Translations under genes and position numbers: made by a program | Assembly: GCA_944389915.1 (NCBI GenBank) | Contig: CALXOC010000043.1 | Location: 1-39,698, forward strand | Length of the DNA: 39,698 bases | Direction: 5' to 3' | From: an uncultured Opitutales bacterium | GTDB lineage: Bacteria; Verrucomicrobiota; Verrucomicrobiia; Opitutales; Intestinicryptomonadaceae | Shown here: piece after piece, positions 35,566 through 37,611 of the stretch | Numbering within the stretch: the stretch's first letter is position 1 | Layout of the letters: each line of letters begins with the position of its first letter | Notes under the pieces: generated by a model | The model's database searches: none | The model's input: the letters and a program-made list of their open reading frames with translations, nothing else | Told to the model about the DNA's origin: nothing

Positions 35566-35865
35566 TCACAATATGTCGATTATTAGAAAAAAGTAGAACA
35601 AGGCTGCGGAAGCCAGCGCCAACAGGGCGTAAAACATATACAGTATTTTTCGAATGGAGGAAAACTTCGCAAAATCCCCGTTGTATTTTCTATCGCCGTT
35701 GCAATCTACAAATCTGTCGAACTCCGAATATGGATCGTCGGAGCATATCACCACTCTGGAGCACATAACCAGAAATATTACTGTAGAAAATATTGCTCCG
35801 GCTATACAGAGCAAATCAATGATATCCAAGTGGAGGTTTCTGATATTTTCAATATAATCTTCCAT
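35566..35865 (-). CDS. Unknown small two-helix membrane protein
   Basis: This 99-residue protein has hydrophobic segments at about 15-36 and 74-97, joined by a polar loop rich in Asp, Arg and Lys that includes two cysteines (CSDDPYSEFDRFVDCNGD). No family was recognised. It converges with trmB (20 bases apart) and lies downstream of the PEP-CTERM genes on the same strand, separated by a weak hairpin at 35879-35899. The uncorrected frame of the frameshifted PEP-CTERM gene runs 64 bases into this gene. Confidence 0.55.
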   Translation of the reverse strand: MEDYIENIRNLHLDIIDLLCIAGAIFSTVIFLVMCSRVVICSDDPYSEFDRFVDCNGDRKYNGDFAKFSSIRKILYMFYALLALASAALFYFFLIIDIL

Positions 35866-35878
35866 ATGAGAAAATAGA

Positions 35879-35899
35879 GTGCGCCTTTTTCAGGCGCAC
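35879..35899 (-). terminator. Weak terminator-like hairpin after the PEP-CTERM genes
   Basis: GTGCGCC (35879-35885) and GGCGCAC (35893-35899) form a 7-bp stem with a seven-base loop. On the minus strand it is followed by the T-rich TCTATTTTCT rather than a clean T-run. Confidence 0.5.
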
Positions 35900-35920
35900 C
35901 CATTAACCGTTCACTATTAT

Positions 35921-36323
35921 TTATTTCGTCCTCTTTGCGCGCAAGACCGCGCATAGAGCAAAAAATCCGAAAATTACCGCAAAGCAAGACGGCTCTGGAA
36001 TGGCATCCCCCCCCTACGACAAAATCGGCCACAGTATCAGGAGACCAATCAATACTGTTTCCGTCGAAATCTTGAAATAGGTTTATAAAAGCGGCTTGCG
36101 CGGCATCGTTGCTATCATAGACCGATATTACTATGGTGGCATCTTCCCCAAAAAGAATGAGGTCGTTTACCGAGTCTTCAAATGTTACATTGTTTAGCGT
36201 GTACCCCGCGTATTCGCTGCCCGGCATCGTTTCGTTTATATATGCAACATCCTCCAAAACTTGTGCCGATAGCGGTATAAAACCTGCTAACAGAAAACAT
36301 TCTGCCAATGCATTGCCGCCCAT
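35921..36323 (-). pseudogene. Short PEP-CTERM protein, frameshifted at a run of eight G
   Basis: From an ATG at 36323 (eight bases after the previous stop) a signal-peptide-like start (ALAECFLLAGFIPLSAQ) leads into a short ectodomain with TLNNVTFE. A segment DLILFGEDATIVISVYDSN follows, ending WSPDTVADFVV. Both ends align closely with the preceding pentapeptide-repeat protein, but the long repeat core is missing. At 36007-36014 eight C on the plus strand (eight G in the gene) shift the frame. With seven G the protein would be 133 residues and end GGDAIPEPS, a hydrophobic helix and RAKRTK, a complete PEP-CTERM signal stopping at 35921. As given, translation runs out of frame to 35802. It may be a phase-variable gene, a decaying copy or a sequence error. 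Confidence 0.75.
36007..36014 (-). repeat. Homopolymer tract of eight G (gene strand) at the ectodomain/anchor junction
   Basis: Eight consecutive C on the plus strand sit directly before the codons for the PEP-CTERM signal. A length of seven restores the sorting signal; eight removes it. Runs of seven or more G/C occur elsewhere in the window (for example in rho near 18203), but there they keep the frame. Confidence 0.9.
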
Positions 36324-36330
36324 GTTCAAT

Positions 36331-37611
36331 TTAGCTTTTTTGCCTTCTATTCCTACATGCCGCAAAGCCAATAGCCAAAGCCCCAAAAATAAATGCGAAA
36401 GTCGATGGTTCGGGAATTGCGGCTACAACGAATGAAGCAACCGTTTCTGGAGACCAGTCCGCGGCGTTGCCGTCGCTGTCCTTGAACAAGCCGATAAAGG
36501 CTTCTTGCGCGCTCAAATCGTCGCTGTAACCAGACATCACAATACTTGTAGAATCTCCCATAAGCAACAAGTCTTCAACCCCGCTTGCGACCTCAGAATC
36601 AAAAATGATATTTATTTTGTCGCTCATGGTAATTGTAACTCCGTCCGAGACTTCCAAGATTTCGCCTCCTTGAATCTCTATCGTTCCGGCTACAAACTCT
36701 GCGTCACTTGCAATTTTAACGTTTTGTCTTGAATCTCTTTCAAATCTTGCGTCATTTGCGTATATCGTTATTTTGTCCGATTCAGATTGCATCGAAATAT
36801 TGGACAAGACTCCAGACGAAGTTATAGTATTCTTGTATATCGCGCCGCTACTGTTGCCCAATATCATGGATCCCCGCAAATCCGCACCTGTAAAATCGGC
36901 ATCTGTCAAATTTACGTTCAAAAGAGTTGCATTGCGGAGATTTACACCAGAAAAATCTACGCCTGAAAAGTCCACGTTCCCGCCGTTTGAAGTTACAAAA
37001 ATCTCGTTTAGCTTCTTGTTTTTGTAGCTTGCGGTGCTTTCCAATATGCCTTTGCTAAAACCTGCATCAATAAAGGTCGCGCCCGCTATATGCGTGTTCT
37101 TCAAAGTGGAGTTCTGCAAATCTACAACAAAGAACGACGAACCATACAAATCAGCATTGTCAAATGTGGTCTTGTCGTCAAACTGCACGGACTGGAATGC
37201 CACATTGTTTACCACTGCGTTTGAAAAATCCGCATTGTATAAATTTATGTTTACCCGGTAAGTAGTAGTGGAACTTCCACTGACAACTTCAGTTTGGCCG
37301 GATATGCTGCCTCCATTCCAACGTGAATTTGAGAAATTCAGATTTAAAAAGTAGCCGCCTATTTCGCTACTCGGCAAGCCCGTATCGTGCCGAACGTGAA
37401 ATACGACATTATTCATAGCAGCTCCAGAAAAATCCGAACCGTGAATGTCCGAAGCTTCAAATGTAACGTTGTTTAATGTGCTTCCCCTGTAATCTACATT
37501 CGGGATTGTCTCCCTCTCGTAGGTCTTGTTTTCTATTACAACAGCAAATAGGGAGCCGGCGTAAATAGAAATAATTACAGCATACAACACAAATACTATT
37601 CTATATATCAT
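36331..37611 (-). CDS. Pentapeptide-repeat protein with PEP-CTERM sorting signal
   Basis: This 426-residue protein has a signal peptide (hydrophobic 5-22, ending SLFA). Residues about 45-255 hold many pentapeptide-type units of the A(D/N)Lxx kind, such as DFSGV, NLRNA, DFTGA, DLRGS, ADFSN and ADLYG, which fold as a right-handed square beta-helix. A non-repeat domain follows (DKITIYANDARFERDS to WSPETVASFVV). The C-terminus is a complete PEP-CTERM signal: IPEPS (399-403), a hydrophobic helix, and RNRRQKS. Such signals are processed by an exosortase for delivery to the cell envelope; none is in the window. AGGAG precedes the ATG well. It sits 23 bases after the upstream PEP-CTERM gene and eight ahead of its short paralogue. 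Confidence 0.88.
   Translation of the reverse strand: MIYRIVFVLYAVIISIYAGSLFAVVIENKTYERETIPNVDYRGSTLNNVTFEASDIHGSDFSGAAMNNVVFHVRHDTGLPSSEIGGYFLNLNFSNSRWNGGSISGQTEVVSGSSTTTYRVNINLYNADFSNAVVNNVAFQSVQFDDKTTFDNADLYGSSFFVVDLQNSTLKNTHIAGATFIDAGFSKGILESTASYKNKKLNEIFVTSNGGNVDFSGVDFSGVNLRNATLLNVNLTDADFTGADLRGSMILGNSSGAIYKNTITSSGVLSNISMQSESDKITIYANDARFERDSRQNVKIASDAEFVAGTIEIQGGEILEVSDGVTITMSDKINIIFDSEVASGVEDLLLMGDSTSIVMSGYSDDLSAQEAFIGLFKDSDGNAADWSPETVASFVVAAIPEPSTFAFIFGALAIGFAACRNRRQKS

Follow-up and report, generated by a model that had tools for sequence, protein, structure and literature searches.

A one-G insertion in the poly(G)7 tract of pldA inactivates this gene in Helicobacter pylori, as cited in Orsi et al. 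(2010; PMC2831843), and in Listeria monocytogenes the A7/A6 switching of inlA involves a frameshift of independent origins whose reversion has been measured (PMC2831843). In Akkermansia muciniphila, surface-related genes contain G tracts of about 8 that have been proposed to phase vary, according to the available part of that report (PMC3048395). Our literature searches returned nothing combining exosortase, PEP-CTERM and frameshift, and a search for PEP-CTERM together with phase variation gave, judged by title, no paper on phase-varying PEP-CTERM substrates. Variation of H. pylori pldA is found between strains and has been followed experimentally, and frameshift pseudogenes occur in large surface-protein families.

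Here we analyzed a stretch of 39,698 nucleotides (the window), which is contig 43 of the 2.21-Mb draft genome (218 contigs) of an uncultured Opitutales bacterium. In this window a short PEP-CTERM gene carries a tract of eight G, whose notable property is its site at a domain junction combined with a break of the reading frame, not the tract as such.

The G tract and the reading frames of the short gene

The features considered are listed below (window positions unless a contig is named).

36331-37611, minus strand: upstream long PEP-CTERM pentapeptide-repeat protein, 426 aa, intact; linker VVAAIPEPS, without a G tract
35802-36323, minus strand: short gene as sequenced (eight-G frame), from ATG 36323 to the stop at 35802; alternative start at the in-frame TTG 36386
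36261-36323, minus strand: signal-peptide-like N-terminus, MGGNALAECFLLAGFIPLSAQ, lacking K/R and containing an E
36170-36171, minus strand: in-frame internal deletion junction, NVTFEDS joined to VNDLILFG, relative to the second gene of G007:C44 and to G001:C1
36015-36167, minus strand: C-terminal ectodomain module of 51 residues, common to the family; matches profile A1 (E = 1.2e-28), of which the window sequence is a row
36007-36014, minus strand: G8 tract at the ectodomain/PEP-CTERM junction; the in-frame length would be 7
35921-36004, minus strand: PEP-CTERM signal in the seven-G frame, AIPEPSCFAVIFGFFALCAVLRAKRTK, ending with TAA 35923-35921; clade profile match E = 3.3e-11, the window's own tail being in the profile
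35877-35901, minus strand: intrinsic-terminator-like hairpin with 10 pairs and a U-rich tail, located after the seven-G stop and before that of the eight-G frame
G000:C12:13464-14330, C70:1163-2011 and C15:1368-2135: three exosortase (EpsH) homologs in one 2.2-Mb genome (PF09721)

Eight C on the plus strand, equal to eight G in the gene, occupy 36007-36014. Translation of the eight-G frame from ATG 36323 gives MGGNALAECFLLAGFIPLSAQVLEDVAYINETMPGSEYAGYTLNNVTFEDSVNDLILFGEDATIVISVYDSNDAAQAAFINLFQDFDGNSIDWSPDTVADFVVGGGCHSR..., and the frame reads ...TVADFVVGGGCHSRAVLL... before its stop at 35802. The PEP motif, the hydrophobic helix and the basic tail are out of frame with the ectodomain as sequenced and are present only in the seven-G frame: one base fewer in the tract joins ectodomain to signal and yields ...FVVGG-DA-IPEPSCFAVIFGFFALCAVLRAKRTK, followed by TAA at 35923-35921. 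An earlier note on this DNA had placed the tract between ectodomain and sorting signal, had put the signal in the next frame and had read it there as IPEPS, a hydrophobic helix and a basic tail; all three points are borne out, the signal being otherwise intact and the seven-G frame open down to its stop codon.

A clade profile built from 22 PEP-CTERM tails matches 36004-35927 (E = 3.3e-11, 45.4 bits) within an open frame of only 30 aa, a score that is partly circular because the window's seven-G tail is among the 22 rows. Neither Pfam PF07589 (E<=1) nor NCBIfam TIGR02595 matched the orphaned signal of the window. The exosortase (EpsH family) is encoded in the window's genome, with three PF09721 matches over the cut-off, suggesting that the sorting machinery is probably there.

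The terminator-like hairpin lies about 20 nt past the seven-G stop codon and about 75 nt before the eight-G stop (35802). The 61 nt from 35925 to 35865 fold with -21.7 kcal/mol (z = -5.4), and in several relatives a hairpin-like repeat and T run, read by eye, soon follow the PEP-CTERM stop. Since the terminator precedes the eight-G stop, the eight-G transcript is predicted to be a non-stop mRNA, very probably ending at 35901-35877 before any eight-G stop codon. A tmRNA gene is present in the window's genome (144.5 bits), and the eight-G state is predicted to be OFF via tmRNA tagging and degradation, with no unanchored secreted form. The idea that the tract toggles anchoring rather than expression, put forward in the earlier note, is therefore probably wrong as to the output. 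Directly downstream, a 99-aa ORF (35566-35865, minus strand) that contains hydrophobic stretches and matches nothing in Pfam overlaps the last part of the eight-G frame.

Linkers of relatives and a second slipped tract

Several relatives have linkers as long as that of the seven-G reading (VV-GG-DA-IPEP), namely VV-AG-PA-IPES in G008, VV-AG-AS-VPEP in G005 and VV-GG-PA-IPEP in a fragment from G014. The in-frame length is thus seven G, as had been proposed, and the change that disrupts the short gene relative to its homologs is a single +1 inside GTA(G8)ATGCC. The other subfamily, including the upstream neighbor, has a linker two residues shorter (VV-AA-IPEP). In the closest homolog (G008:C19:17744-17821), the in-frame PEP-CTERM signal has IPESS, not IPEPS.

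Comparison of the tract position in orthologs revealed a second slipped G run at the same linker, in a homolog from a different genus of the same family (G014:C34). This gene has GTA GGGGGG CTGCGGTTCCGGAG and is out of frame by one; its ectodomain of about 400 residues runs into VVGGLRFRSPPPM... in the six-G frame, leaving the PEP-CTERM signal (E = 6.2e-14) orphaned within an open frame of 35 residues. Seven G would restore the frame there too. Because a stop closes the six-G frame ahead of the terminator-like T run of this gene, a secreted form is conceivable in this organism. The same linker is shifted +1 in the window and -1 in G014:C34, that is, in two lineages, which points to a mutational hot spot and makes the observation more interesting than the window sequence alone could tell. 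Recurrence alone shows no switch, because among the 19 family genomes searched neither of the two pure tracts (G8 in the window, G6 in G014:C34) has the in-frame length. At the linker of other family members, G runs are interrupted or absent, and most relatives carry the signal in frame without any tract.

The earlier note had advised looking for similar tracts before other PEP-CTERM signals. The pattern G6..[IV]PEP, run against 373 genomes of the order, hit four places in the family; two of them, in the window and in G014:C34, belong to PEP-CTERM genes, and the other two (G001:C1:82154 and G007:C83:12777) do not. The backward-read control pattern also matches commonly in the order. A third junction frameshift among the family's genomes was found in a cultured isolate, Puniceicoccaceae Marseille-Q1082 (G001), whose PEP-CTERM gene (G001:C1:259382-259453, L147) is out of frame exactly at the ectodomain/signal junction, CTCTCCCCACGTCCCCGAACCC, with the break at or near a C4 run. 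Other alleles of the window gene were absent from viral contigs, and the genome collection, which may not include the window's own species, returned only relatives already compared.

G/C tracts of 8 or more number about 20 in the 2.21-Mb genome versus 21-35 expected (0.4-0.6 per window) from Markov models fitted to the window. A genome-wide excess of G8 is thus ruled out, and at genome scale the tract is neither longer nor commoner than base composition predicts. About 13 other such tracts lie in intact coding frames, largely of housekeeping genes as judged from translations, and several are intergenic, indicating that G8 is no marker of switches in the window's genome and that tract-length errors are not general in its assembly.

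Each genus genome with a match contains 16-83 PEP-CTERM genes. Broken copies are frequent and break at varied positions (G015:C209, G009:C51, G001:259382 and the remnant G014:C50), and others are likely broken too (G010:C22, G007:C128 and G007:C71); part of the signals inspected had been selected for short open frames and yields no unbiased rate. In this clade, decay is what one would expect of a family member by default. Orphaned PEP-CTERM signals were also considered as further switches and rejected, as many lie at contig ends and the internal ones represent frameshifts or truncations at varied distances. In addition, ATA stands at the expected start of a good signal peptide in G014:C50 (L049), G014:C34 (L045) and G001:C1:1425217 (L150), the ATA-start PEP-CTERM sequences being IKTKTIALLAIIASGLSVAAQ, IRSLLGFNLLISASVL and IKPNAFICALAALAAVSASA; in such otherwise plausible genes ATA is either a rare AUA start or a lost start.

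Gene structure and explanations of the frameshift

About 300 residues are missing from the window copy relative to the second gene of G007:C44 and to G001:C1. G007 shares the arrangement, with a long gene and then a second gene that keeps its pentapeptide-type ectodomain to the contig end (MNNKIAVVCFLLASSVPMFAQNLENATYKNETMPNGAYAGYTLNNVTFEDSDIHDSNFSN...), and G001 carries a complete version of this second-gene type. The short gene looks like an internally deleted copy of a pentapeptide-repeat gene of about 430 residues. In G007:C44 (L022), visual inspection of the translation shows an integrase-like frame upstream of the two tandem PEP-CTERM genes.

The N-terminus of the short gene has a hydrophobic stretch, no basic n-region and one glutamate, versus MKKLLTI, MKTTTIL, MKTKTIF, MKKTILT, MIYRIVF and MNNKIAV in relatives; since a start at the in-frame TTG 36386 would add basic residues, this mark of signal-peptide decay is not absolute. 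Within the 51-residue module, three residues (M14I, G16V and S34F) depart uniquely from columns invariant in the other seven members, a count that G005 alone equals. The terminal branch of the module, with weak branch support, is about twice as long as that of G008_C19, its nearest relative, and its dN/dS versus G008 is about 0.3; drawn from 51 codons, these values are only suggestive. Further disabling changes had been named as a sign of a pseudogene, and the deletion, the weakened signal peptide and the unique changes are candidates for this kind, but only the frameshift is certainly disabling.

Tract length sets the frame of a gene that is also internally deleted and whose signal peptide is eroded, and we consider it probable, as our leading reading, that a recent frameshift occurred at a slippage-prone linker in a dispensable, degenerating paralog. 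We infer the order of events, the loss of function and the fate of the product as follows. Of two tandem genes for PEP-CTERM pentapeptide-repeat surface proteins, the short gene would be the second, degenerating copy, which would have lost about 300 internal residues and seen its export signal erode. Its GGN-GGN linker would have turned into a pure G run, to which slipped-strand replication may have added one G (7 to 8), throwing the sorting signal out of frame. The mRNA of the eight-G state would most likely end at the terminator without a stop codon, and its product would be expected to be tagged by tmRNA and degraded, leaving the gene off and nothing secreted. This reading draws on the deletion versus full-length relatives, a signal peptide that lacks basic residues and has an acidic one, the unique departures and long terminal branch of the module, the opposite slip in G014:C34, the frequency of broken PEP-CTERM genes in the clade, the terminator before the eight-G stop together with a tmRNA gene, and the other G8 tracts being mostly in intact frames. 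It has to be set against a deletion that is in frame, an ectodomain module that is otherwise open and a seven-G signal intact to its stop, with the frameshift alone certainly disabling; against a module dN/dS still about 0.3, with the marks resting on 51 codons and one signal peptide; and against the weak branch support, the equal count in G005 and the TTG start.

Surface-protein phase variation at a contingency locus, in which the tract would slip reversibly with 7 (or 10) G as the ON, anchored state and 8 or 9 as OFF, is a less probable reading. The tract sits exactly at the junction, the frame beyond it is intact in both slipped genes, the same event recurs in another genus with the opposite shift, three exosortase homologs make the sorting machinery probable, and insertion from G7 to G8 is an inactivation route described for H. 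pylori pldA (PMC2831843). However, neither pure tract is in frame, the G6 of G014 is short for high-rate slippage, the window copy has an eroded export signal and a deletion, G8 is not enriched genome-wide and lies mostly in intact, largely housekeeping genes, and other family members have no tract. That the Gly-Gly linker might form a heritable, reversible surface-protein switch acting via non-stop mRNA and tagging, in at least two genera of gut Opitutales, seems unlikely. An assembly or sequencing error, with a true tract of seven G and an intact gene, is quite improbable: the genome is a draft and the frame past the tract reads faultlessly through to its stop codon, but about 13 other 8+ tracts within coding genes of this assembly keep the frame, and a shorter run, G6, breaks the frame in G014 as well, an unrelated assembly with contig names of the k127 type given by MEGAHIT. 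Recoding, by which RNA polymerase or ribosome slippage on the G run would yield a fixed anchored fraction from the eight-G gene, fits a homopolymer exactly at the frame change, with a run also there in G014:C34, and is nevertheless extremely improbable, as reaching seven G would take a shift in opposite directions in the two tracts (from 8 in one, from 6 in the other), the signal of most relatives is in frame with no tract present, and bacterial transcriptional slippage, as known, occurs mostly on A/T runs.

Comparison with known systems

If the change is reversible, it would be the first case, in the literature searched, of phase variation on a PEP-CTERM/exosortase substrate, in a little-studied group of gut bacteria with dozens of PEP-CTERM proteins per genome. 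If it is not, the locus is a caution that mutations concentrate at a homopolymer lying on a domain junction, in a clade where broken PEP-CTERM genes are frequent.

Like H. pylori pldA, the short gene would be a cell-envelope gene inactivated by one G added to a seven-G tract within the coding region; unlike pldA, it is seen in one state in one draft genome, with the tract at the junction before a sorting signal. L. monocytogenes inlA is similar in that it, too, codes for an anchored surface protein and is hit by a homopolymer indel, with frameshifts of independent origins, whereas the inlA tract is at the 5' end and leads to an 8-aa peptide, and its protein belongs to the LPXTG/sortase and not the PEP-CTERM/exosortase system. 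A. muciniphila is likewise a Verrucomicrobia-related gut bacterium with PEP-CTERM proteins; unlike the window gene, the genes named in the available part of its report are capsule genes, not PEP-CTERM genes, and slippage was proposed from sequence. Finally, the short gene resembles frameshift pseudogenes of large surface-protein families in being a duplicated, diverging gene whose frame is broken at its longest homopolymer and which shows further degenerative changes, and it differs from the average such pseudogene in that the same linker has slipped in two genera.
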